64,000 nucleotides of DNA, taken from NCBI GenBank assembly GCA_003388505.1, contig QQVO01000010.1, positions 62,001 to 126,000 on the forward strand. The letters are read 5' to 3'. The position numbers were made by a program, and so were the translations under genes. The first letter of the stretch is position 1. Every line of letters begins with the position of its first letter. This DNA comes from Planctomycetota bacterium (GTDB lineage: Bacteria; Planctomycetota; Planctomycetia; Planctomycetales; Planctomycetaceae). Shown here piece after piece: positions 25,927-39,559 of this stretch. Under the pieces are notes generated by a model. The model was not told where the DNA came from and did not search any database. It worked only from the letters and a program-made list of their open reading frames with translations.

Positions 25927-28900
25927 ATGAATCGCCTTTACTCACTCGTCTGCATTCTGATCGCTCCCGCAGCCGCGAGCGCCGACGAGCCGCCGCGATC
26001 CCTCGATCCGCGGATCAAGATCGAACTCTTCGCCGAGCAGCCACAGGTCCGCACGCCCACCGGCGTCGACGTCGACCGTCAGGGCCGCGTCTGGGTCATC
26101 GAGAGCAACACGCACTTCCGACCCGACGACTACGACGGTCACCCCAGCGACCGGTTGCTCATCATGACCGACACCGACGGTGACGGCCGCGCTGACGAGG
26201 TAAAGACCTTCGCCGACGGCTTCACCCACGCCATGAGCGTCGCCGTCCGCCCGGTGTGGATGGATCGGGTGCTGGTCGAGAGTCGAGAGACGAGCATCGA
26301 GAGCGATCGGAGATCCGAGGAATCACCCTCGACCCTGGATTCTCGTCCCTCGCCCCAAGTCTTCCTCGCCACCCGCCGCGAAATCCTTCTCCTCGAAGAC
26401 ACCGACGGCGACGACCAGTGCGACCGGCAGACCGTTCTCGTCCGGCTGGAAACCGAAGGCGACTACCCCCACAACGGACTCGCCGGCTTCGCCTTCGACG
26501 CCCTCGGCTGGATGTACTTCGGATTCGGAGAAAACCTCGGCGCGCCGTATCGGCTTGAAAGCAGAGAGTTCAGAGCCGAGAGCCAAGAGAAAGACGGCGA
26601 ATCGGGCGATGACGCGGATACCGACTCCACTCCTGGCTCTCCCCTCTCAGCTCGCCCCGCTTCCCTCTCCGGCGGTGGGGAAGGGGGCAACCTGTACCGG
26701 ATGCGGCCTGACGGAACGCAGCTCTCGCATTGGGCGACCGGGTTCTGGAATCCGCACGCCTCGTGCGTCGACGCATTCGGCCGACTGTTCACCGTCGACA
26801 ACGATCCGGACAGTCTGCCTCCCTGCCGACTGCTGCATATCATCGAGGGCGGCGATTACGGCTACCGATTCCGCAACGGCCGCAAAGGGCTGCATCCCTT
26901 CACCGCCTGGAACGGGGAAATCCCCGGCACCCTCCCGATGGTCGCCGGCACGGGCGAAGCGCCCAGCGGCATCCTCGCCTACGAACACGACGCCTTCCCC
27001 GAGGAGTATCTCGGCAACCTCATCGTCACCAGCTGGGGCGACCACCGCATCGACCGCTTCGTCCTCAAACCAAAAGGCGCCTCATTCGAATCAATCGCCG
27101 AGCCGCTGATCCAGGGGGGCGAGAACTTCCGCCCCGTCGGCATCGCCCTCGCTCCCGACGGCAGCCTCTACTGCAGCGACTGGGTCCTCCGGGACTACAA
27201 CCTGCACGGGCAGGGACGCGTGTGGCGGATTTCGGCGGTCGAAGAGCAGACAGCGCCGACAGATCAGAAAAACGGATCGGCGTCCGCATACATCCACGAG
27301 CGGCGAGCGAAAGCGCGGGAATTGAATAGGACTCGGGAGGGCTGGAATGTGCTGACCGACACGCTTTCGGATGTGAATGCATCGGCTCGCGCGCGCATCG
27401 AAGCGCTCTGGGCAATTTGTGTTCTGCCGGATGATGTCGGTCCATTGTTCAAGCAGGAACCGCCCGAACAGGCTCCGATTGCCTACGCTTTTGACGAAGT
27501 AGCCATCGAAGCTGCCCGATTGCTTGCTTCCCCCAGATTCTCGCTGGAAGGCATACCGGAAGACACCTTCTGGTTCGAACGGACGGACGGGAGGACCTAC
27601 TTCCGTTCTCCACCGAACGGCGAGGTAGACAAGACCCAACTCATTCACTTTCACGCGGCTCTCGCATGGAATCCGTTTCCACAGCAGGATCTCTTGTACT
27701 ACGAAGAGAGCGTTCATGTGAATGAAGATCCAGAGTACTACGTTACGGACCCGTTCGCGTTTGCGTCAGAGATTCACTATCGACTCCAAGCTTATGATTC
27801 CGCGCAGGAACTTCTGATTGGCGTCCTTGAGCACGAGCCCGGTTGCATTTTGTCCTTCACAAATCTTGAGTTGAGAGAGGTGTATTACCTTCTCGCCGCG
27901 CGCAGATTGAATCCGGAGTTCGAGGACTACGTGACGTATGGTCTGTCCAATGAGTACCCAGAAGTACGTCGCTCGGCCGTCCAGTGGGCCGCTGAGGAAG
28001 GGATGACCGACCTCCGGCCGCAGGTGGAGGCGGTGTTGCAGTCGGAGCCGATGACGACGGACCTCTTCCTCGCCACGCTCGCCGCGCTGGAAATGCTCGA
28101 CGGAAAAGATCCGAAAGACTTTGATCAGACGCCGGCCGGGCAGTACGTTTTGCCGTTGCTCAAGGACGCAGAGACGCCGGCTTCCGTGAAAGTGCAGGCC
28201 CTGCGGTTAGTTGACCCGGCAGACGAAGGGCTCGATCAGCCATTGCTGGAACAACTCCTGACCTCCGACGATCGCGCACTACGCCTCGAAGCCCTCCGCA
28301 CGCTCGCGGCTTCGCCCTACGCAACGGCAGACAGACTCCTCGCACTGGCCGGCGATGATGACGAGACCGACATCATCCGCGCTGAAGCGATCTTGGGACT
28401 GGCGCACGCCGTTCTGCGGAACGGTGATTCTGCGAAAACCGTCGATGCGATGTTCGACCTCCTGCTCACGCTCACGCCGCCCCTGCAAATTGAGATGCTC
28501 CGCTCGCTCCGTGCGGCCGCCCTGCGAGAGCCGGATCTCGCGGAAGCGCTCGTCAATGGCGTGCTCGAACAGCCTGATCCGGAGGGCGGTTGGGCGGAGA
28601 TCGAGGCGCAGCTTGCTCTGCTCTCGCCCGACGGCAGGCCTCAATCGTCCAACGAAGTTGACCGTAGTAACCGGCCGCAGACCGACGACGAATGGCGAAC
28701 GGCGTTGCAACACGAAGGAGACGATGGTGAAGCGCAACGCCGGGCCGCCGGACGCCGGGTCTTCTTCCACCCCAACGGACCTGCCTGTTACAAGTGCCAC
28801 ACGGTCAACGGCCGTGGGGGGCGGATCGGTCCGGACCTGTCGAACATCGGGCGGTCGAGTTCACGCGAGAAGCTGATCGACTCCATATTGGAGCCGAGCA

Positions 28901-29157: not shown

Positions 29158-29386
29158 TCGGAATCCCGATTACGGCGCCTCCAAAGCCCGCCGGATGCGA
29201 CGTGCGGGAAACCTTCGGCAATACCTGCCGACGAGCGACACGCACGTCCGTTACAACCGTCACAAGCCGACCGCCGTGCGAGTGGTAGCGATTGCGCGGG
29301 TTGATCCGTGTCGAACGGCGATTCCGCTTGTGCCGATAAGCGTGCGGGGAGACACGCCTGCCGACTGCTTGATGGAGGGACGTCTG

Positions 29387-29812
29387 ATGAATCGCTGTTT
29401 CGCTGCACTAGTCCTCGTCGCCTTCGCGACGATCGCTTCGGATTCCCGCGCCGACGACTGCGCGCGTCCGCCCGTGTGCTGCAAGCCGGCCGGGAGCTGT
29501 GCGACGGCGATCGAGTGCATCTACTGTTGCCGCCCTGTCGTGAAGCGTGAAACCGTCGAGAAGGAAGGTTTCGACGTAGAGTGCGAGTACATCTGCGTTC
29601 CGGGCATCAAATGGCCGTGGCAGAAGTGCTGCGAAAAGCCAAGCTGCGGGAAGGTCAAAAAGGTCCGCAAGCTCGTGAAGCGCGAGTGGGAGTGCGGCGA
29701 GAAATGCGTGTGGGAGTGGGAACTCTCCTGCTGCTGCCGGGCCGTGGATTGCAAGCCGTTCGGTCTTCAGGACCGCTGCGCCGCAGCCGCCCCCTGCGCC
29801 CCGATGCACTGA
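29387..29812 (+). CDS. Small secreted cysteine-rich protein
   Basis: 141 residues from ATG 29387, chosen because GGAGGGA lies 6 nt upstream and a signal peptide follows directly (NRCFAALVLVAFATIASDSRA). The mature part of about 117 residues has 20 cysteines, many as CC or CCC (PPVCCKP, IYCCRP, KCCEKPSC, LSCCCRA). It also has basic Lys/Arg stretches (KVKKVRKLVKREW) and aromatic residues. This is the composition of a disulfide-rich exported protein. Planctomycetes are known for proteinaceous, cysteine-rich envelopes, so a structural envelope role is plausible, but no named family was recognised. A 16-nt perfect palindrome follows the stop. The gene is monocistronic. Confidence 0.85.
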   Translation: MNRCFAALVLVAFATIASDSRADDCARPPVCCKPAGSCATAIECIYCCRPVVKRETVEKEGFDVECEYICVPGIKWPWQKCCEKPSCGKVKKVRKLVKREWECGEKCVWEWELSCCCRAVDCKPFGLQDRCAAAAPCAPMH

Positions 29813-29979: not shown

Positions 29980-31902
29980 ATGTCGGCACAATTCGCCACG
30001 TACGCCGAGACGATCCGCCGGCTGAATGCGTCGCTGATTGCGCTGGAGGACGCGGCCCACACGGCGTCGGTCCCACCGCTGGCCGGACGCGAATGGTGGG
30101 AACTGCTGCAGCGCAAGCTCATCCCGCAGCTTTCCGACGAAGCGTACCTCGTCGTGGCGGTCGTCGGCGGAACCAACATCGGCAAGAGCGTCATCTTCAA
30201 TCATCTGGCCGGCACACAGGCCAGCGCGACCAGTCCCCTCGCCTCGGGAACCAAGCACCCGGTTTGCCTGATCTCGGAAGGCTTCGACCAGCAACACGAT
30301 CTCTCGGCCGTGTTTCCCGGCTTTCAACTGATCGAGTGGAACGACCCGGCCGCGGCGCTGGAGGAGACCGACGAGCATCGGCTGTTCTGGCGGGCCTCAC
30401 CGGACTGCCCGGACAACCTGCTGATCCTCGACACGCCCGACATCGACAGCGACGCCCGCATCAACTGGGAACGAGCCGACCACATTCGGCGCTCGGCGGA
30501 CCTGCTGATCGCGGTGCTGACGCAACAGAAATACAACGACGCAGCCGTGAAGGCGTTCTTCCGGAAGGCGGCGGAGGAAGACAAGGCGGTGATCGTCGTC
30601 TTCAACCAATGCCTGCTGCCCGAAGATGAAGAATTCTGGCCCCGCTGGCTCGACACCTTCTGTACCGAAACCCGCGTCGAGCCTGAGTGGATCTATGTCG
30701 CGCCGAACGACCGGCGGGCCGCGGAGTCGTTGAAACTGTCCTTCTTCGAGCGGAGTCGTCCCGGGACGGACGAGCCGGACGACGCGAATCGAGATTTAGC
30801 CCGCAGCCTGTTGGAAGACCTCTCGCGGCTCCGTTTCGGCGAGGTCAAGGTCCGCGCGCTGCGCGGGGCGATGCAGCACCTGGTCGATGAAACCGAGGGG
30901 GTGCCGGCCTATCTGCGGGAGATCCGGCAGGCGTGCCGGGAGTTCGCGTCGGCGGCTGAACTGCTGACCGCGAACCAACTGGCTGAAGTCAAAGAGTGGC
31001 CGACCGTGCCGAATCCGCTGCTGATCGGCGAGATTCGCACCTGGTGGCAGCAGCAGCGCACCGGATGGACCGGTCAGGTGCACGGCGCCTACAACGCACT
31101 GGGCCGAGGCCTGACCTGGCCGTTTCGGGCGGCCCGGCAGAAACTGAAGGGCGAGACCCGGTCCGCCTGGGAGATCTACCAGGAACGGGAATGGTCGGCG
31201 GTTCTCACGGCGATCGAAAAGGTCTACTCGAAGCTGACATTCCTCACGGAACTGGGCAACGACGTTCTCAAACCGCGGCTCGAACGCGCGCTGGCGGGCA
31301 CGTCCCGCAGCGCCCTGATCGAGCGAGTCCGGTCGCGGCACCGGGAACTTGACCTGCAGCAGGAGCTGCATGCTCTGGTGGCACGGGAACTGGCCGGATT
31401 TCGCGAGGAGAGCCCCCGGCATTACGAGTTCTTCCGAAGGATCGACATGGCGGCGGCGGCGGCCCGTCCGGCGACGAGCGTCATTCTGTTTGTCACGGGA
31501 TTCGCGCCGGTCGGTGAGGTGATCGCGCCGGTCGTCGCTGATTCGGCGATGCAGGGGGCGCTGCACGTTGCCGGAGACGTCGCCGGCGGCACACTGACGG
31601 CGGCCGTGGGGGACACGGTTCTGAGCGAGGGCGCCGCGAGCGGGACCGGTTACCTGGAAGCGAAATTCCGCAGGCTGCACGCCGGCTTCGCGGCGCAACG
31701 GGCCGCGTGGCTGGCCGGAATGTTGAGCGAGCATCTGCTCGGAACGCTCCCGACCGAAGTGCAGGCGGCGGCCGCGATCCCGCAATCGGAACCGTTTACG
31801 GACGTGACGCGGCTGATGGGCGAGATTCGCGAGTCGCTGGCGACGGTCCCGGCGTCGGACACCGAACCTCAAAGCACTGGTCAATCCGTATCGGCCGAGT
31901 GA
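29980..31902 (+). CDS. Large dynamin-like/YfjP-type GTPase, first of a tandem pair
   Basis: 640 residues. The GTP-binding domain has Walker A GGTNIGKS (residues 63-70), G3 as DTPD (Asp151) and a possible but degenerate G4, FNQCL, where NKxD would be expected. LTQQKY follows G3 and is shared with the next gene. Helical regions follow, with a hydrophobic segment at about 495-550 (SVILFVTGFAPVGEVIAPVV) that could insert into the membrane. The overall plan (GTPase head, helical stalk, membrane segment) is like bacterial dynamin-like proteins, though no strict family match can be claimed. The next GTPase starts 9 bp downstream, so the two are surely co-expressed, as expected for partners that form hetero-oligomers. 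Confidence 0.8.
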   Translation: MSAQFATYAETIRRLNASLIALEDAAHTASVPPLAGREWWELLQRKLIPQLSDEAYLVVAVVGGTNIGKSVIFNHLAGTQASATSPLASGTKHPVCLISEGFDQQHDLSAVFPGFQLIEWNDPAAALEETDEHRLFWRASPDCPDNLLILDTPDIDSDARINWERADHIRRSADLLIAVLTQQKYNDAAVKAFFRKAAEEDKAVIVVFNQCLLPEDEEFWPRWLDTFCTETRVEPEWIYVAPNDRRAAESLKLSFFERSRPGTDEPDDANRDLARSLLEDLSRLRFGEVKVRALRGAMQHLVDETEGVPAYLREIRQACREFASAAELLTANQLAEVKEWPTVPNPLLIGEIRTWWQQQRTGWTGQVHGAYNALGRGLTWPFRAARQKLKGETRSAWEIYQEREWSAVLTAIEKVYSKLTFLTELGNDVLKPRLERALAGTSRSALIERVRSRHRELDLQQELHALVARELAGFREESPRHYEFFRRIDMAAAAARPATSVILFVTGFAPVGEVIAPVVADSAMQGALHVAGDVAGGTLTAAVGDTVLSEGAASGTGYLEAKFRRLHAGFAAQRAAWLAGMLSEHLLGTLPTEVQAAAAIPQSEPFTDVTRLMGEIRESLATVPASDTEPQSTGQSVSAE

Positions 31903-31911
31903 AAGACTGCC

Positions 31912-33726
31912 ATGCACGAACCACAAGTGGCTCAACTCGAGATGCTGGCGCGGCTCGACCAGGCGACGTCTCGCGCCGCCGAATGGGCCGACCGCCGGAC
32001 CGCGTGGCAACCGTTGTCACAGGCCCAGACGATGGTGAAGCGCGCCCTGGGCCGCGCGGAGACGTTGCGGGTGCGGCTCGAGGCTCCGATTGTCGTCGCA
32101 ACCTTCGGTGGCACGGGAACGGGGAAGAGTTCACTGATCAACGCCATCGTCGGCGAAGAGTGCACGCAGTCGGGAAGGGAGCGGCCGACGACCCGCCGCC
32201 CGATCGTGATCGCGCATCCGAAGGCCGATCTCGAGCCGATCGGCCTGCCGCTGGACGAAGTCGAGATCGTGAGACGCGACGCCGAGATTCTCAGAGATCT
32301 GGTGCTCATTGATTGTCCCGATCCCGATACGAGCGAGACCGAGGAGGCGGGGAGCAACCTGCAACGGCTGCATGCGCTGCTCCCCTACTGCGATGTGCTG
32401 ATTTACACGTCGACGCAGCAGAAGTATCGTTCGGCGCGGGTCGCTGAGGAACTGGGCCAGGCGGCGGCCGGTTGCCGGCTGGTCTTCGTGCAGACGCATG
32501 CAGACCTCGACGAGGACGTTCGCGAAGACTGGCGGGCGCGGTTGCGCGAACACTACGAAATTCCCGACGTCTTCTTGATCGATTCGCTGCGCGGACTGCA
32601 GGAGCAACAGGCGTCACAGAGACCGAGCGGGGATCTGGCGCGGCTGCAGGACCTGCTGACCACCCAGCTTGCTGCCTCGGAACGGATGCGGGTTCGCCGC
32701 GCCAACGTCGTCGACCTGCTGTTGGGCGTGGTGGGGCGGTGCCGGGAACTGCTGCAGCCGGAGGCGCCCCGTCTGGATGACCTTGAAGAAGCCCTCGCGC
32801 AGCAGAATGCCGCGCTGAGCGAGTCGCTCTCGACGACGCTGCGCGGCGAACTGATCGGCAGCCGGCATCTGTGGGAGCGTCGGCTGCTGGCGGCCGTGAG
32901 CGCAACCTGGGGCTTCAGTCCCTTCTCGGGATTGTTGCGGCTCTACCAGGGATTGGGCGCGCTGATCGCTTCGTTCGCGCTGTTCCGGTCGCGGAGCGCG
33001 GCTCAGATGGCTCTGGTCGGCGCGATGCAGGGGGCGCGGTGGTGGTCAGGCCGCCGGGCCGAGAGGCAGGCGGAGGAGAACTTGGAGTCGGCGTTCTGCC
33101 TCGACGACGCGACCCTGCGGGAGGCGAGCCTGGTTGTGGACGGGCATCGGCGGAGCGCCGGCATGCTGCAGACGGAAGAGTCGACCCGCTCCCTGACCGA
33201 GTTGCAGGGGCGCGCTGCGCAACTGGAGCGGGATTTTCTCACCGACGCGGCGCGACGAATCGACGACGTGATCGACCGGCTGGCGCGACGCAACTCGCGG
33301 TGGTTCGTGCGGCTGTTCTACGAACTGATGTTCGCGGCTTATCTGATGTTCGTACTGTACCGGGTGGGGAAGAACTTCTTCTATGATTCGTGGATTCACG
33401 ACGCTCCCCTGCTCTCGACCGATTTCTACATTCCGGCGTTGCTGTTCTTCCTGCTATGGGCGGGGCTCCTGTTGATGGCGTTTACGCACAGGCTGCGGAG
33501 AGGACTGAACGCCGAAATCGATGAACTTGCGCGGGAGATGGTGCACCGACGCTTCGGAAGCGGGCTGTTCCCTGACCTCGAGGAGAGTTGCCGTCAGGCG
33601 CGGGGGGCTGTGATGGAACTCGACGCAATCAACGCATCGCTCGGGGCCCTGCGCGACGAGATCGCGATATCGACGGCCCTGGGCGGTCGGCGGGCTCCGG
33701 GTGCAACGGTTGTCAGTGATGTCTGA
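31912..33726 (+). CDS. Large membrane GTPase, second of a tandem pair
   Basis: 604 residues, starting 9 bp after the previous gene. Walker A GGTGTGKS (66-73), a switch-like RPTTRRP (a G2 Thr candidate), G3 DCPD (Asp134) and G4-like THAD (195-198) instead of NKxD. TSTQQKY after G3 mirrors LTQQKY of the neighbour. The central part is helical and amphipathic. Around residue 465-525 there are two clear transmembrane helices (YELMFAAYLMFVLYRVG and FYIPALLFFLLWAGLLLMAF), so this member is an integral membrane protein. The pair is best viewed as a two-subunit membrane-remodelling or stress GTPase; that function is inference. It converges with the J-like gene. Confidence 0.82.
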   Translation: MHEPQVAQLEMLARLDQATSRAAEWADRRTAWQPLSQAQTMVKRALGRAETLRVRLEAPIVVATFGGTGTGKSSLINAIVGEECTQSGRERPTTRRPIVIAHPKADLEPIGLPLDEVEIVRRDAEILRDLVLIDCPDPDTSETEEAGSNLQRLHALLPYCDVLIYTSTQQKYRSARVAEELGQAAAGCRLVFVQTHADLDEDVREDWRARLREHYEIPDVFLIDSLRGLQEQQASQRPSGDLARLQDLLTTQLAASERMRVRRANVVDLLLGVVGRCRELLQPEAPRLDDLEEALAQQNAALSESLSTTLRGELIGSRHLWERRLLAAVSATWGFSPFSGLLRLYQGLGALIASFALFRSRSAAQMALVGAMQGARWWSGRRAERQAEENLESAFCLDDATLREASLVVDGHRRSAGMLQTEESTRSLTELQGRAAQLERDFLTDAARRIDDVIDRLARRNSRWFVRLFYELMFAAYLMFVLYRVGKNFFYDSWIHDAPLLSTDFYIPALLFFLLWAGLLLMAFTHRLRRGLNAEIDELAREMVHRRFGSGLFPDLEESCRQARGAVMELDAINASLGALRDEIAISTALGGRRAPGATVVSDV

Positions 33727-33823: not shown

Positions 33824-34843
33824 TCACTTCCAGTAGTTCTGCGTGACCCACCAGCCTGCAAGGCCTCCGGCGACGGCAGCGAGCGCCAGGCAGGGGAAGA
33901 AACCGAGCAGAGGGACCGTCGTCACGCCGACGTGATAGAGAATTTGCGGCAACATCGGGATGATGAGCGTCCAGCAGATGATGATGTAGCCGATCTGTTT
34001 GCGCTTGTGCTGCTCCTCGGCAGAGAGCTGATTCCAGTTTTTGCGCGGCTCTTTGCTGCGTCCCGAGGATTTCGCAGCGGCCGGTCTGGCGGTTCCGGCC
34101 GTCTGAGCGGCCGCGGCCTCGTCGCGGACTCCGGGCGCGTAGAATTTGGCGATGGCCTGATTGACGGCCCTGGGCGTGGTGATGACAGGGCGGATGGGGA
34201 CGTCGTAGCGGAGGCGGAGTTCCTCTTCGAGTTCGTGCCCCGGTTGGTCAACGCAGGCGATCAACAACCGGTCGTCATCGATGAAGAGTGGCAGAATGGA
34301 GTGCTTCTTGACGAGGGCCCGCGGAACCATGTCGAGAATGTGGTCCTCGGGAAGCATGTCTTCGAGATCGACGTAGGAGAAACCGAGCTGAATCGCGAGC
34401 GCCTGCGCCGCCGGTTCGGGACCGACGAGTTTCATCTGGACGACGGCGTCCCGTTCGGACAAACCGGTCCGGGAGGCGTAGCTTTCAACCTCTTTTTTCT
34501 GCTCCCGCGAGATGTGCTTCTGCCGGACGAGGACGTCGAGCAGGGGCATGCGTCCGAACTCGTCGCGTTGCGGCGCGAACTCGCGGCCGAGAGATTCGTC
34601 GTAATCGCGCTTCCGCTCGGGGTCGGTCAGGCAGAGCATCGCCTTGGCCATTTCGTTGAGCAGTTCCTGCGACTGCACCGAGTACTGGCCGGTGGCGTAC
34701 TTGCGAACGTGGGCGTTCAGCTTCTTATAGTGCGTGCGAATCTTTTCCGGATCGTCCTCAAACCGGACGCAGCGCAGCAGTTCGTAATGGTCCGGCGGAC
34801 GCGGACCCTCGGGGATGCCGAGCCATTCCTTGTAAACATCCAT
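33824..34843 (-). CDS. J-domain-like and MshEN membrane protein
   Basis: 339 residues. Residues 1-85 resemble a J-domain (HYELLRCVRFEDDPEKIRTHY ... AMLCLTDPERKRDYDESLG) but the diagnostic HPD tripeptide is absent; the corresponding loop reads ARKYATG-like basic sequence. Residues about 100-235 match the MshEN/GspE N-terminal fold (LLDVLVRQKHISREQKKEVE, ALAIQLGFSYVDLED, LVKKHSILPLFIDDDRLLIA), known in some proteins to bind cyclic di-GMP. A Lys/Arg-rich linker leads to two C-terminal membrane helices (IGYIIICWTLIIPMLPQILY and the LLGFFPCLALAAVAGGLAGW region). An Hsp70-family gene lies immediately upstream on the same strand, with dispersed element copy D in the spacer ending 6 nt before this ATG. 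Confidence 0.75.
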   Translation of the reverse strand: MDVYKEWLGIPEGPRPPDHYELLRCVRFEDDPEKIRTHYKKLNAHVRKYATGQYSVQSQELLNEMAKAMLCLTDPERKRDYDESLGREFAPQRDEFGRMPLLDVLVRQKHISREQKKEVESYASRTGLSERDAVVQMKLVGPEPAAQALAIQLGFSYVDLEDMLPEDHILDMVPRALVKKHSILPLFIDDDRLLIACVDQPGHELEEELRLRYDVPIRPVITTPRAVNQAIAKFYAPGVRDEAAAAQTAGTARPAAAKSSGRSKEPRKNWNQLSAEEQHKRKQIGYIIICWTLIIPMLPQILYHVGVTTVPLLGFFPCLALAAVAGGLAGWWVTQNYWK

Positions 34844-35121: not shown

Positions 35122-36699
35122 TTATTCGACTTCGTATTGCGAGGCCAACTGCTCGAACACGGAGACGCCCTCCGTATCGAGACCCTGCGCCCGGTCGATT
35201 TCGATCTGTGCTTCGGCGTTTCCCGTCAGTTCGCGGGCGTGCGCGCCGATGCGGCCGTTCTTGTCGTACTCGTAGGTGACTTCGACCGGCGATCCGGCCG
35301 GGAGATTCGGCGGCAGGTTGACGACACGGAAGTCGCCGATGGTGGTGCAGGCGTCTGGGTCGGAGGCTTCGCCTTCGAGCACGCAGATGTGCACGCGTTG
35401 CTGGTTCTGCGAGTTCGTCGCGAACCGCTGCGTCACTTTATGCGGCACGGCGGTGTTTTTGGGGACCATGATGTGGTTGATTTTCCGGGAGCGATCGTTG
35501 GGATCGGTGATCTTCACGCCGAGCGAGTGCGAGTTGACGTCGGTGGTGTTGACCGCCCGAAGCCTGTTGATAATCGCCCGTCCCAGCCGCGTGTCGCCTC
35601 CGGTCGCCCTGGCTTCCAGAATGGCGGCATGAATGCAGGCCCCCTGAGCGACGGCTTCTTCCGGGATGACGTCGCGTGAGGGTTCGCGTCCGGTGACGTC
35701 CTTGAGCATGGCTTCCACGACGGGCATGTGAGTCGACCCGCCGACCAGGACGACCTCGTCCAGTTCGCCCTTTTTCATGCCGGCCTGCTGCATCACGAGT
35801 TCCGTCGTGTCGCGCGTTCTCTGCATGAGGTCGGACGTCATTTTTTCGAAATCGCCGCGCGTCAACGCCACCGTGAGATTCTTGCCCTTGTAGTAGCAAT
35901 TGACCGGCACCTGGGCCTTGTTGCTCAGGTCGCGTTTTGCGTCCTCACACTCCTGGGTGAGGGTCATCATCGATTCCGGATTTTCACGGGGATCTTCGTT
36001 GAATTTGCGATGGAACTGCTCGGCGATGTGGTCCACAACGCGGCGGCTCCAGTCGAGGCCGCCCAGCATGACGTCGCCGTCGGTCGCCAGCACCCGGAAG
36101 GAGGTCGGCGTGTAACGGACGACCGTGACGTCGAACGTTCCTCCCCCGAGGTCGTAAACCAGGATCGTTCGCTCCTTGTTTCCGATGTCCTGCCGTCCCA
36201 GTTCGCCGCGCTGCCAGGCGTATGCGAGGGTGGCTGCGGTCGGCTCATTGATGATGTCGATGACGTTGATGCCCGCGATGCGTCCCGCATCCTGCGTGGC
36301 TTTGCGCCGCACGTCGTTGAAGTAATAGGGGACGGTGAGCACGGCATTCGTGATCGGTCCGATGGTGGCCTCGGCGTCCTGCTTGAGCTTCTTCAGGATC
36401 AACGCCGAGATGAACTCCGGCGTGAGCTTCTTGTTCTGATAGACAACGAAGAAATCCTTGTTGCCCATCTGCCGCTTGATGGCTTCCACGATGTGACTGG
36501 GATCCTCCAGCGACATCCGCTCGAAGGTCGGGCCGACAATGACTTTGCCGTCGTCGCCCAGGAGGACGACCGACGGGGTGATCGTCTTGCCGTCGGCGTT
36601 CTTGATCGAGGTGGGGTTCCCCTCGGGATCAAGCTGCGCAAGCGCAGAGTAGGTGGTGCCGAGGTCAATTCCGACGGTCTGGCCTTCCTTAATTTCCAT
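35122..36699 (-). CDS. Hsp70-family chaperone, short form
   Basis: 525 residues from the ATG at 36699-36697, preceded by GGCGAGA; a start 15 codons upstream is less likely. Actin-like ATPase motifs are all present: VGIDLGTTYS (phosphate 1), AGINVIDIINEPTAATLAYA, VYDLGGGTFDVTVV (phosphate 2) and EVVLVGGSTHMPVV (adenosine). The substrate-binding beta domain follows (SHSLGVKITDP, VLEGEASDPDACTTIGDFRV, NGRIGAHA) and the protein stops shortly after, so the C-terminal helical lid of DnaK is missing. This matches HscC/YegD-like short Hsp70s rather than the housekeeping DnaK. It is upstream of the J-like MshEN gene, suggesting a chaperone pair. A 7-bp inverted repeat (36739-36756) lies 40 bp before the start. 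Confidence 0.93.
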   Translation of the reverse strand: MEIKEGQTVGIDLGTTYSALAQLDPEGNPTSIKNADGKTITPSVVLLGDDGKVIVGPTFERMSLEDPSHIVEAIKRQMGNKDFFVVYQNKKLTPEFISALILKKLKQDAEATIGPITNAVLTVPYYFNDVRRKATQDAGRIAGINVIDIINEPTAATLAYAWQRGELGRQDIGNKERTILVYDLGGGTFDVTVVRYTPTSFRVLATDGDVMLGGLDWSRRVVDHIAEQFHRKFNEDPRENPESMMTLTQECEDAKRDLSNKAQVPVNCYYKGKNLTVALTRGDFEKMTSDLMQRTRDTTELVMQQAGMKKGELDEVVLVGGSTHMPVVEAMLKDVTGREPSRDVIPEEAVAQGACIHAAILEARATGGDTRLGRAIINRLRAVNTTDVNSHSLGVKITDPNDRSRKINHIMVPKNTAVPHKVTQRFATNSQNQQRVHICVLEGEASDPDACTTIGDFRVVNLPPNLPAGSPVEVTYEYDKNGRIGAHARELTGNAEAQIEIDRAQGLDTEGVSVFEQLASQYEVE

Positions 36700-37048
36700 C
36701 GATTCTCGCCTGTTTGCAGACTGTTGGGCCACCGGAAACGTCACGGAATCGTGACGGAGAAATTGCGTCGCCTGAGACGTGCAGTTGAAGAAACGGCGGT
36801 CGATCGGCGATGTTCACAACCGTTCTCCGGGAGCGGTTGCCGACGAGTAGTCATTCTGACGGGCGTGGAGGGGCGTTGCAAGGATGATGCCGGCCGGAAC
36901 CGGGCGGCTGCGGCATTCCGAGTGCGAGACGTCCCGCCGGTTCCCGGGCCCGTCGATTCGGACGAAATCAGCCGACTCTTGCTTGTCGAGCAGGTCTCTG
37001 TTTTGCAAGAATGCGGCCGACGGATGCTGCAGACACGGAGGTTTTGGT
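36700..37048. promoter_or_regulatory. Divergent control region hsp70 / hybrid kinase, with inverted repeat
   Basis: This 349-bp region separates the Hsp70 gene (minus) from the histidine kinase gene (plus). It contains CGTCACG-GAAT-CGTGACG (36739-36756), a perfect 7-bp inverted repeat close to the Hsp70 start, and a weaker AACCG...CGGTT stem near 36828. No CIRCE element and no clear -35/-10 pair was recognised. The repeat may be an operator or a leader hairpin. Confidence 0.45.
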
Positions 37049-39559
37049 ATGGCGTTTCTCTCGGTCGAGCGGGGCTCGTGCGCCGGGCGTTGTGTGGAAG
37101 TTGTCGGGACGCCGTTTCTGATCGGCCGTCACCTGAACAGCGATCTGGTGTTCGAGGATGAGACCATCTCCCGCCGGCACGCGCGGATTCTGCGTACTGC
37201 GAGCGGATACGAGATCGAGGATCTGCACAGCCGCAACGGAACGATGGTCAACGGCGAGAAGGTCGTCGACCGCCGCAGGCTGAAGAGCGGGGACACGATC
37301 GGGCTGTTTGACGTCGTCTTGAAGTTTCTTGAAGACGAGGCCGCCCAGACGCACCGCGAAACGCCGGTGTCTGGCGGTTGGAGCGGTGACGAGACAGCGC
37401 ACTTCCATGTGGGGTCGCCGCTCAACGGCGAGGCGGTCGCCGTCAGGGATGCATACACCGTCAAGTCCGACAGGCAGGGCGACGCAGAGATCCAATTGCA
37501 GGCGGTGCTTGACGTGACGCGCCACATCAGCAACTGGCTCGACCTCGACGATCTGTATGACCAGATCCTGGGCGGCCTGTTTCGCGTGTTTCCGCAGACG
37601 GAGCGGGCCTGTGTGCTGCGTCTGGATCAGGCGACGCGGCGACTGGTGCTTGACGCCGGAAGAGTCCGGAACGGCGAGGTTCCGGGCACGCTCGGCCCGC
37701 TCATGCTCTCGATCGTGCGACGAGCCTTCAAGGAGGGGAAATCGCTGGTGAATCAGGACGTGCTGGAGTCGGAGGGCGCGTCTGACGAATTTTCGATTCA
37801 CGACTTTGAGCAGAGCAGCGTGATGTGCGCGCCGCTGATCGACTCGGCGCGCGAACCCTTGGGGGCGATCTATCTCGACACGAACGATCCGACTCGCCCG
37901 TTCGCCGGCAGGGATCTCGACATGCTGGCGTGCGTCGCGATTCTGGCCAGCCAGGCGGTGGAGCAGGAGACGCTGCACAACACGCGATACCGCGCGGTGG
38001 TCGACACCTCGGTGGACGCGATCATTACGTTCAACGAGCACGGGACGATCGAGTCGATCAACCCGGCGGCGGTCGACCTGTTCGCCTACGGTCCGGGAGA
38101 GTTGCGGGGGATGAACATTGCCACGCTGGTCCCCGAACTCGCCTCGCTGACCGCGTCGGCCGACAAGAGTTCGGTCGTCTCCCTGTTCTGGACGTTTCAA
38201 CGGAGCGGGGAAGCGACCGGGCGACGCTCGGACCACACCGAATTCCCGGTGCGGGTGGCGATTGGCGAATTCGAACTCAGGGGGCGGAAGCTCTACACCG
38301 CGACACTGCACGACATTACCGAACAGATTCGCGTCGAAAACACGCTGAAGACGCTTAACGACCACCTCGAAAAAGAGGTGCAGCGACGGACCGGTTACGT
38401 GCAGTTGCTGCAGGACGTCGCCGTCATCGCGAACGAGACCGACTCGGTCTCGGAGGCGCTGCAGGCGGGGGTGAAGCGCGTCTGCGAATTCATGCAGTGG
38501 GAATCGGGCCATGTCTATCTGCAGGACGAGGAGGAATCGGACATCTATGTGAACAGCGGGATCCGCGTCAGTCTCGACAGCGATCCGTCGGACCTGTGCG
38601 ACGTCAGAGAGTCGATTCGCCATTCGGTGGACGGCCGGAGCGAGTTGCTCGTCCACCGCGTGCTCGCGACGGGCGAGCCCTGCTTCGCGGAGGCGGATGC
38701 GGAGTCGTCGACGGCCAAACCTGAGCGAAATGGCGAGTCCCCTGCATTGCGGCCTGTTTTTTCGTTTCCGATTGTGATCGGAGACGACGTGGTCGCCGTG
38801 GCGGAATTCTCCTCGCGCGATCCGTCGCCCCAACGCGATGAGACGCTGCTCAGCATCATGTCGCACGTCGGCACTCAACTCGGACGCGTGATCGAACGCC
38901 ACCGACTGCAGCGCGACGTGGTCGACGCGGTCTGGCATCAACAGCGGCAGTTCGGCCAGGAACTGCACGACACGGTCGGGCAGGAGCTGACCGGCATCTG
39001 CATGATGGCGAGCAGTCTCGCGCGGCGGCTGACCGAGCGGAACGCTCCGGAAAGCGAGCGGGTGCGGGATCTGGCCAGCATGCTCCAGCACGCCAAGCAA
39101 GGCACGCGACGACTTGCCAAGGGCCTGCTGCCGGTCGAAATCGATTCAGCCGGCCTGCAGCCCGCATTGGAAGAGCTGGGCGAAACGACGCGTGATCGCT
39201 GCGAGATCGCGGTCGACGTCGACTATCAGGCGGGATTGCAGGTCGCCGACAACAGCACGGCGACGCACCTGTTTCGCATCGCGCAAGAAGCCGTCACGAA
39301 CGCCGTCAAGCACGCCCGCGCCCGGCGCCTGGTTCTGTCGTTCACGACGGATGAGGACGGGGCGTCGTGCTTGCGGATCATTGACGACGGTTCGGGAATT
39401 CAGAGGAAATGCAGCCGTCGACGACGAGGCGTGGGACTGCGGGTCATGCGGTTTCGCGCCGCCGTCATTGGCGCCACATTGACCATTCAACCCGGCGAGC
39501 AGAGGGGAACCTCCGTCATCTGCCGCCTGCCAGGGAGTCATGGAAATGTCCAGTGCTGA
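37049..39559 (+). CDS. FHA-GAF-PAS-GAF sensor histidine kinase (NarL/LiaS-type)
   Basis: 836 residues. ATG 37049 has GGAGG 7 nt upstream and begins exactly at an FHA domain (VGTPFLIGRHLNSDLVFEDE, ISRRHARIL, LHSRNGTMVNG), which binds phosphothreonine. A GAF domain (about 160-300), a PAS domain (about 315-430, VDTSVDAIITFNEHGTIESI), a coiled coil, and a second GAF (about 450-615) follow. The kinase core is HisKA_3: QELHDTVGQELTG with phospho-acceptor His640. The HATPase has IAQEAVTNAVKHARA and IDDGSGI. No membrane helix is seen, so sensing is cytoplasmic. The FHA domain suggests input from Ser/Thr kinases. It overlaps the response-regulator gene by 20 bp, so the two are translated together. Confidence 0.93.
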   Translation: MAFLSVERGSCAGRCVEVVGTPFLIGRHLNSDLVFEDETISRRHARILRTASGYEIEDLHSRNGTMVNGEKVVDRRRLKSGDTIGLFDVVLKFLEDEAAQTHRETPVSGGWSGDETAHFHVGSPLNGEAVAVRDAYTVKSDRQGDAEIQLQAVLDVTRHISNWLDLDDLYDQILGGLFRVFPQTERACVLRLDQATRRLVLDAGRVRNGEVPGTLGPLMLSIVRRAFKEGKSLVNQDVLESEGASDEFSIHDFEQSSVMCAPLIDSAREPLGAIYLDTNDPTRPFAGRDLDMLACVAILASQAVEQETLHNTRYRAVVDTSVDAIITFNEHGTIESINPAAVDLFAYGPGELRGMNIATLVPELASLTASADKSSVVSLFWTFQRSGEATGRRSDHTEFPVRVAIGEFELRGRKLYTATLHDITEQIRVENTLKTLNDHLEKEVQRRTGYVQLLQDVAVIANETDSVSEALQAGVKRVCEFMQWESGHVYLQDEEESDIYVNSGIRVSLDSDPSDLCDVRESIRHSVDGRSELLVHRVLATGEPCFAEADAESSTAKPERNGESPALRPVFSFPIVIGDDVVAVAEFSSRDPSPQRDETLLSIMSHVGTQLGRVIERHRLQRDVVDAVWHQQRQFGQELHDTVGQELTGICMMASSLARRLTERNAPESERVRDLASMLQHAKQGTRRLAKGLLPVEIDSAGLQPALEELGETTRDRCEIAVDVDYQAGLQVADNSTATHLFRIAQEAVTNAVKHARARRLVLSFTTDEDGASCLRIIDDGSGIQRKCSRRRRGVGLRVMRFRAAVIGATLTIQPGEQRGTSVICRLPGSHGNVQC

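Follow-up and report, generated by a model that had tools for sequence, protein, structure and literature searches.

A conserved tandem of predicted mitofusin/BDLP-type dynamin-like GTPases in Planctomycetaceae and other bacteria

The stretch of DNA analysed here (the window, 64,000 nucleotides) is segment G000:C6:62001-126000 of the 6.78-Mb assembly of a Planctomycetota bacterium of the family Planctomycetaceae. Near its middle lie two large GTPase genes, here called gene A and gene B, which are read from the same strand in the same reading frame:

29980..31902, + strand: gene A, predicted dynamin-like GTPase of 640 aa (open reading frame (ORF) list, Pfam, AlphaFold2 model)
31903..31911, + strand: spacer of 9 bp between the stop of A and the start of B
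31912..33726, + strand: gene B, predicted dynamin-like GTPase of 604 aa with predicted C-terminal membrane helices (ORF list, Pfam, AlphaFold2 model)

A tandem of two large GTPase genes 9 bp apart had been noted in a first-pass annotation of the sequence, and both ORFs are indeed present as described. Their conservation across the family, documented below, puts the gene pair beyond chance. In Pfam, the product of gene B matched Dynamin_N above the cut-off (1e-7), while that of gene A matched MMR_HSR1 above the cut-off (4.5e-9) and Dynamin_N below it (0.0017).

AlphaFold2 was run on the single proteins with 54 (A) and 55 (B) aligned sequences. The A model reached a predicted local distance difference test score (pLDDT) of 85.8 and a predicted template modelling score (pTM) of 0.78, and the B model reached 82.2 and 0.70. 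The top Foldseek match of both models was the Nostoc bacterial dynamin-like protein (BDLP; 2j68, 2j69), with 2j68 at 3.1e-8 for A and 1.1e-10 for B. The next matches were mitofusin 1 (MFN1) and Fzo1 for A, and 5oxf_C, a chain of the Campylobacter Cj-DLP pair, and IniA for B. VIA-align ranked Fzo1 and MFN1 top, followed by other mitofusins, IniA (for B), EHD ATPases and SynDLP. The A model was superposed on Fzo1 9kfd_B with Z 24.8 and a root-mean-square deviation (rmsd) of 4.2 over 325 residues (model span 1-626), and the B model on 9kfe with Z 24.1 and rmsd 3.1 over 299 residues (model span 1-586) and on MFN1 with Z 23.9. Fzo1 and MFN1 thus scored Z 23-25, compared with 13-16 for unrelated translation and ribosome GTPases. 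The match covers an N-terminal helix, the G domain and a C-terminal helix, which together correspond to a mitofusin-type neck (model residue 1 to 586-628), and long helices extend beyond the neck in both models. The sequences differ strongly, with 12-14% identity over the aligned part. Mitofusins and Fzo1 sit in the outer mitochondrial membrane of eukaryotes. A TRAFAC fold without a stalk, the contrary outcome considered in the first-pass annotation, was not obtained, since both models have a helical neck. The dynamin-like class proposed there is backed by the Fzo1/mitofusin match through G domain and neck (Z ~24) and by the first rank of BDLP in Foldseek. The models therefore give good support to the prediction that A and B are dynamin-like proteins of the mitofusin/BDLP fold class.

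Sequence comparison of A pointed elsewhere in part. Ribosome-assembly or tRNA-modification GTPases (Era, Der, HydF) were its best NCBIfam and PDB sequence matches, mostly via the P-loop region, which would fit such an enzyme carrying helical extensions. However, none of these matches attained the curated NCBIfam cut-off, and the A model, with its long helices and hydrophobic end, scored far higher with Fzo1 (Z 24.8) than with Era (Z 14.5); with the B model, Era scored 15.8. We consider this explanation extremely unlikely. The NCBIfam profiles of known bacterial dynamins were also far from matched by B, which scored 11.2 bits with Bacillus DynA (NF052648, cut-off 1600) and 27.2 bits with CrfC (NF007368, cut-off 1146). 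A YfjP profile did not appear among the Pfam and NCBIfam matches.

The G-domain motifs were counted in three sets: 116 selected and aligned G domains (57 A, 53 B and 6 outgroup rows), in which the A and B columns coincide; a wider set of 135 A and 149 B proteins; and a family subset of 39 A and 39 B proteins. Residue invariance was judged on 54 aligned A rows and 55 aligned B rows. The motifs in the window are as follows:

30166..30189, + strand: G1/P-loop of A, GGTNIGKS, residues 63-70 (G63, G68 and K69 invariant)
30430..30450, + strand: G3 of A, DTPDIDS, residues 151-157, of the form DxPD (D151, P153 and D154 invariant)
30520..30534, + strand: TQQKY of A, residues 181-185 (Y185 invariant)
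30601..30615, + strand: G4 position of A, FNQCL (context VFNQCL), specificity Asp missing
32107..32130, + strand: G1/P-loop of B, GGTGTGKS, residues 66-73 (G66, G71, K72 and S73 invariant)
32311..32331, + strand: G3 of B, DCPDPDT, residues 134-140, of the form DxPD (D134, P136 and D137 invariant)
32413..32427, + strand: TQQKY of B, residues 168-172, read from the sequence
32494..32505, + strand: G4 of B, THAD (context VQTHAD), residues 195-198, Asp kept

Both proteins carry the P-loop signature GxxxxGK[ST]. The strongest signature of the pair is the DxPD form of G3, which the first-pass annotation had not mentioned. DxPD was found in 57/57 A and 53/53 B rows and DxxG in 0/110, while all six ordinary dynamin-like outgroup rows have DxxG. 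In the wider set, DxPD was found in 132/135 A and 146/149 B proteins (278/284 in total) and DxxG in none; the six departures are the A and B proteins of three loci (L193, L222 and L233), all outside the tree described below. Neither protein therefore shows the classical dynamin combination of DxxG and [NT]KxD, given the DxPD in 110/110 rows, the missing G4 Asp in A and the THAD of B. A literature search on DxPD together with dynamin found no description of this signature, whereas dynamin-like hetero-pairs are a kind already known.

The TQQKY motif, which had been reported as common to both proteins just after G3, is indeed present in 39/39 A and 39/39 B proteins of the family. Both AlphaFold models place it in the loop that joins strand 4 to the following helix (strand 175-180 and helix 188-199 in A; strand 162-167 and helix 175-185 in B). 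More distant relatives carry [KR]Y in the same columns (49/57 A, 47/53 B and 0/6 outgroup rows, with Tyr alone in 57/57 A), often as [ST]-x-E-[KR]-Y. TQQKY was consequently dropped as a unique motif and appears to be the family-specific form of a broader signature.

The G4 motif separates the two proteins. The earlier view that it is degenerate in both holds for A, where FNQCL lacks the Asp, but not for B, where THAD is a TKxD variant that keeps it. In the 116-domain alignment, the Asp is retained in 52/53 B rows and 6/57 A rows, and the full [NT]KxD in 27/53 and 4/57, respectively; in the wider set, the Asp is present in 140/149 B and 8/135 A proteins. Within the family, all 39 A proteins have [FLV]NQ at the G4 position, and 30/39 B proteins have the Asp, the other nine having THAG, THAE or THAS. 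In these alignments, G4 differs mainly between A and B, and family B has lost the Asp in some further cases; comparison across phyla thus turns an apparent oddity into an A/B trend. One explanation of this asymmetry is that A is a pseudo-GTPase or scaffold. In that case the pair would be a static scaffold on the membrane, with B as the only possible switch and no mechanical remodelling. The rarity of the G4 Asp in A (6/57) and the absence of the DxxG Gly from all 110 rows are in line with this explanation. On the other hand, the G1 Lys of A is invariant and Thr91 in its G2 region is nearly invariant (54 rows), as in nucleotide binders. We regard a scaffold as unlikely, though it retains a real minority chance.

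Hydrophobic segments were called at a Kyte-Doolittle (KD) threshold of 1.6, and the following candidate membrane regions were located:

31498..31635, + strand: putative membrane hairpin of A, residues 507-552, at the tip of the bundle, where pLDDT is low and long helices lie on either side
33301..33357, + strand: hydrophobic segment 1 of B, residues 464-482 (KD 1.62), within helix 464-496
33430..33486, + strand: hydrophobic segment 2 of B, residues 507-525 (KD 2.27), within helix 503-550

A has a single segment at 498-516 (KD 1.71), before and into the low-confidence hairpin. The first-pass annotation had contrasted two strong helices in B with one hairpin in A; the counts stand, two segments in B and one in A, but only one of those in B is strong and the other is moderate. 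Among 38 family proteins of each kind, B has two segments in 15 and one in 23, and A has one in 17 and none in 21. Two segments were also found in 46 of the 69 B proteins longer than 450 aa from the named-genome loci introduced below. B is more clearly the predicted integral subunit because of these segment counts in the window and its relatives.

The A/B pair is kept by most members of the window's family. Among 150 family genomes, a strong match (at least 250 bits) was found for A in 137, for B in 138 and for both in 130. Both genes are adjacent on one strand in 73 of these 130 genomes, always with A first; in 8 they lie on the same contig at a distance of 0.32 to 4.8 Mb, and in 49 on different contigs, some of which may reflect assembly breaks. 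Neither A nor B matched in G289 (100% complete), G294 (97), G318 (91), G345 (66) and G356 (59). The single-gene exceptions, detailed below, and the complete genome G289 argue against a general essential role.

The distances between A and B bear on whether they work together at all. They could be independent, homo-oligomeric dynamin-like proteins whose adjacency was inherited from an old tandem duplication, as would suit their separation in the assembly in 57/130 genomes (8 of them on one contig), the 15 genomes with only one strong match, and the A-only loci elsewhere in the phylum (L085, L090 and L101). But both genes are mostly kept even where unlinked and are missing together in five genomes, which argues for a joint function, and tandems in which A comes first and its stop codon overlaps the start codon of B recur in several phyla. 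Independent proteins are accordingly given a fairly low probability. The same family distribution bears on an anti-phage or stress-response dynamin system such as LeoABC. PADLOC profiles gave weak matches in the G domain (A with LeoA 6.1e-5, B with mad8 4.5e-5, B with LeoBC 0.0013), those to LeoABC being only short. These matches are no better than those to other GTPases, the distribution is core-like (both strong in 130/150), and no non-GTPase gene recurs beside the pair at most loci. A defence role is therefore very unlikely.

Beyond the family, 246 genomes of the phylum were searched with the B profile. Some match was found in 240/246, a figure that includes other GTPases; B-type matches (at least 190 bits) were found at 48 places in 47/246 genomes, comprising 13/13 of the family and 34/233 elsewhere. 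Two neighbouring genes of the A/B kind were present in 25 of 40 further stretches (L080-L119). In the named genomes that were scanned, 177 loci were confirmed; of the 80 listed among them, 65 are close same-strand tandems and, with gene starts placed by script, 53 have an overlapping junction, 27 of these by 4 bp. At least 80 named-genome loci span Planctomycetota including Gemmataceae, Chloroflexi, Actinomycetota, Desulfobacteria and related groups, Methylococcales, Granulosicoccus and a few others. As judged from profile matches and gene order, the A-then-B tandem is common to several phyla and not special to planctomycetes. Nor does the survey favour a general division factor of the phylum, as a clear B is missing from most of the genomes sampled outside the family. 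Single frames of 1000-1500 aa at some distant loci, which had been considered as A-B fusions, were rejected as upstream read-through in GC-rich DNA; the one case checked individually, a 1501-aa frame in G018, has its A and B matches in different frames, hence no fusion. In two genomes (G133 and G064), A-type genes were seen without a neighbouring B (L085, 8299-10137, - strand; L090, 9280-11121, + strand). Both genomes also carry a separate full pair, and their lone A-type genes cluster with the A genes of family f61.

A tree of the 116 G domains was built with a quick method, which left 38/111 inner branches open and several end branches long. Its rows represent 22 of the 25 two-gene loci of L080-L119 (L082, L094 and L109 omitted), 22 of the 80 named-genome loci, 5 of the 38 family proteins of each kind and 4 A genes that have no B beside them; L100, L102 and L103 are outside it. 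L111-L117 and L119 had entered as weak B matches and were then dropped: L111-L116 and L119 have a G3 of DTPG and are ordinary dynamin-like singles, L111-L116 serving as the outgroup, and L117 had no hidden Markov model (HMM) match. Distant pairs were labelled A and B by gene order. At nine loci (L084, L089, L105, L107, L109, L110, L193, L233 and L245), the B profile gave the upstream gene a higher score than the A profile did, and the five of these in the tree (L084, L089, L105, L107 and L110) fell on the A side. All 57 A rows lie on one side of a branch with 93 in the Shimodaira-Hasegawa-like approximate likelihood ratio test (SH-aLRT). L095_B and L108_B are placed next to A, so that two changes are required for the 53 B rows; a single B clade was not rejected by the approximately unbiased test (p-AU 0.259), a result that falls short of proof of a clade. 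The same groups recur on both sides, namely Gemmataceae, Methylococcaceae with Granulosicoccaceae, Chloroflexi with actinobacteria, and Desulfobacteria. Moreover, A and B distances over 47 loci correlated with r 0.81, the highest of 1000 shuffles giving 0.16. This tree indicates that A and B are two old paralogue lineages.

Most bacterial dynamin-like genes are paired, and Campylobacter Cj-DLP1 and Cj-DLP2 assemble as a 2:2 tetramer (passages of PMC6104087). The pair in the window resembles Cj-DLP1/Cj-DLP2 (5owv, 5oxf) in being a side-by-side pair, and Cj-DLP chains are among the first matches of the B model, but their sequences match the B profile weakly (5owv_A 3.8e-6, 5owv_C 2.9e-5). Mycobacterial IniA (6j72, 6j73) shares the neck and possibly the trunk, scoring Z 19.2 with B, but with an rmsd of 31 over 334 residues. 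IniA, for which membrane fission in vitro is described, binds membranes via a lipid-interacting loop (both in passages of PMC6715688), unlike B with its two hydrophobic helices. In Streptomyces, DynB has two transmembrane segments and is the partner of DynA (passages of PMC8748795), and the two stabilise Z-rings during sporulation (passages of PMC8748795 and PMC6104087). B of the window likewise has two predicted transmembrane segments at KD 1.6.

The link to DynA/DynB was followed through actinobacterial genomes. The B protein of Actinomyces matched one record in the plasmid collection, from Nonomuraea gerenzanensis, which carries an A-then-B tandem; P0002 had no match in this collection. The record (NZ_LT559118.1, L253) is 11.85 Mb long and, though filed in the plasmid collection, is probably the Nonomuraea chromosome. 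The Nonomuraea B protein in turn matched 39/119 genomes in the phylum of Actinomyces sp. HPA0247. SsgA-family genes are a mark of Streptomyces and its relatives. Six were found in G412, five in G496, and none in G431 and G417, and from these counts we take the large genomes G412 and G496 to be Streptomyces-like. Each of the two has Dynamin_N at two places, one being the A gene of a tandem and the other a separate ORF of 417-418 aa, and their A-then-B tandem clusters with other actinobacterial A and B rows in the tree. As the Streptomyces-like tandem belongs to the same two lineages, the A/B pair of the window is probably of the DynA/DynB type, if that tandem is DynA/DynB as we infer. No newer literature on DynA/DynB was found.

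DynA and DynB differ from the planctomycete pair in acting on FtsZ rings. The FtsZ profile TIGR00065 was above its cut-off in 0/246 genomes of the phylum, with nine weak matches and none in the 13 family genomes of this sample, while 13/14 control genomes were positive. Planctomycete division proceeds without FtsZ, by a machinery described as unidentified in passages of PMC10632474 and PMC12283558. With FtsZ not found in the phylum sample, a Z-ring is an improbable target of the planctomycete pair. Transposon mutagenesis has been published for Planctopirus limnophila, and neither dynamin nor GTPase is mentioned in the main text of the P. limnophila essentiality paper (PMC10632474). Literature searches turned up no paper whose title or abstract deals with a planctomycete pair of this kind, passages of PMC4164004 included.

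Taken together, we consider it likely, at about two chances in three, that A and B are partners in a hetero-oligomeric inner-membrane dynamin-like system of the mitofusin/BDLP class. Support for the hetero-pair, already suggested in the first-pass annotation, comes from the co-retention of A and B, the A-first tandems of several phyla and the two paralogue lineages. In such a system, B, as the integral membrane protein, would be the anchor of the complex, to which A would attach. The dynamin loop that corresponds to the TQQKY loop contacts the partner G domain. In the same way, the G domains of A and B might face each other through their TQQKY loops, which are identical, each domain lending its loop to the other. 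Having the G4 Asp in most cases, B would be the main GTP-specific subunit, and A a subunit of relaxed specificity or slow turnover that triggers or regulates B. That A mostly lacks the G4 Asp and B mostly has it, with DxPD in both, suggests that the G domains act as one unit. Through nucleotide cycling, neck and trunk could then bend, so that the membrane is tethered, curved or resealed; judged from the predicted fold, a remodelling role is probable.

Several observations weigh against a hetero-oligomeric mitofusin/BDLP-class system. On the structural side, the full-length models superpose badly on BDLP (TM-score 0.22-0.28), and the best solved sequence-profile matches are the immunity-related GTPase Irgb10 for B (5.5e-12) and Der for A (8.2e-13), neither of them a mitofusin; the B profile matched BDLP at 4.4e-8. 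The hydrophobic segments vary among relatives, with none in 21/38 family A and only one in 23/38 family B proteins. In the assemblies, A and B are not adjacent in 57/130 genomes, strong A occurs without strong B in 7 family genomes and the reverse in 8, many of them incomplete, and G269 (99% complete) has a strong A and only a weak B match. The correlation of A and B distances can arise from shared host ancestry alone. As for the motifs, the G4 Asp is absent from A and from 9/39 family B proteins, the latter slightly reducing our confidence, and the DxxG Gly is absent from G3 in every counted A and B row, so that the switch may work otherwise than in dynamins. The putative interface role of TQQKY, finally, is drawn from its place in the predicted secondary structure and from dynamin structures.

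As to the cellular task, planctomycetes have elaborate inner membranes, and the first-pass annotation had connected the pair with them. This connection is possible but weakened by the presence of the pair in Actinomycetota, Chloroflexi and Desulfobacteria and by a clear B in only 47/246 genomes of the phylum. Membrane repair, invagination or division support are possible tasks of the planctomycete pair. A more far-reaching proposal, which we hold to be rather doubtful, is that the pair is an FtsZ-independent form of an old membrane-constriction device that serves budding, septum closure or invagination, its shared DxPD marking a hetero-dimeric switch unlike known dynamins. If so, actinomycetes would use the device as DynA/DynB beside FtsZ, and this family would use it without FtsZ. 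The presence of a predicted mitofusin-class pair in 130/150 family genomes makes it a deletable candidate for membrane remodelling.

The remaining genes around the pair in the window include the following:

29195-29812, + strand: small protein rich in cysteine, apparently with an internal signal peptide, that matched nothing in Pfam up to E 1
33824-34843, - strand: MshEN protein (MshEN 7.5e-16) with a weak N-terminal DnaJ-like match (0.002, below the Pfam cut-off), converging on the GTPase pair
35122-36744, - strand: Hsp70/DnaK homologue of 540 aa, its match stopping at position 511-513 of DnaK profiles 596-625 long
36884-39559, + strand: FHA-GAF-PAS-GAF histidine kinase, divergent from the DnaK-like gene

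A comparison of 59 stretches (the window and L062-L119) found no gene cluster besides the GTPases that recurs in more than 7. A chaperone link was considered and dropped, the DnaK-like gene not being retained next to the pair in relatives. Most of the C-terminal lid is absent from this DnaK homologue, and the MshEN protein has C-terminal hydrophobic segments and no HPD motif that we could see. Further upstream, no direct repeats were found in 26200-26800 around two in-frame low-complexity stretches (26280-26360 and 26555-26665; e.g. SRETSIESDRRSEESPSTLDSRPS), which resemble insertions within a DUF7133/cytochrome c protein.

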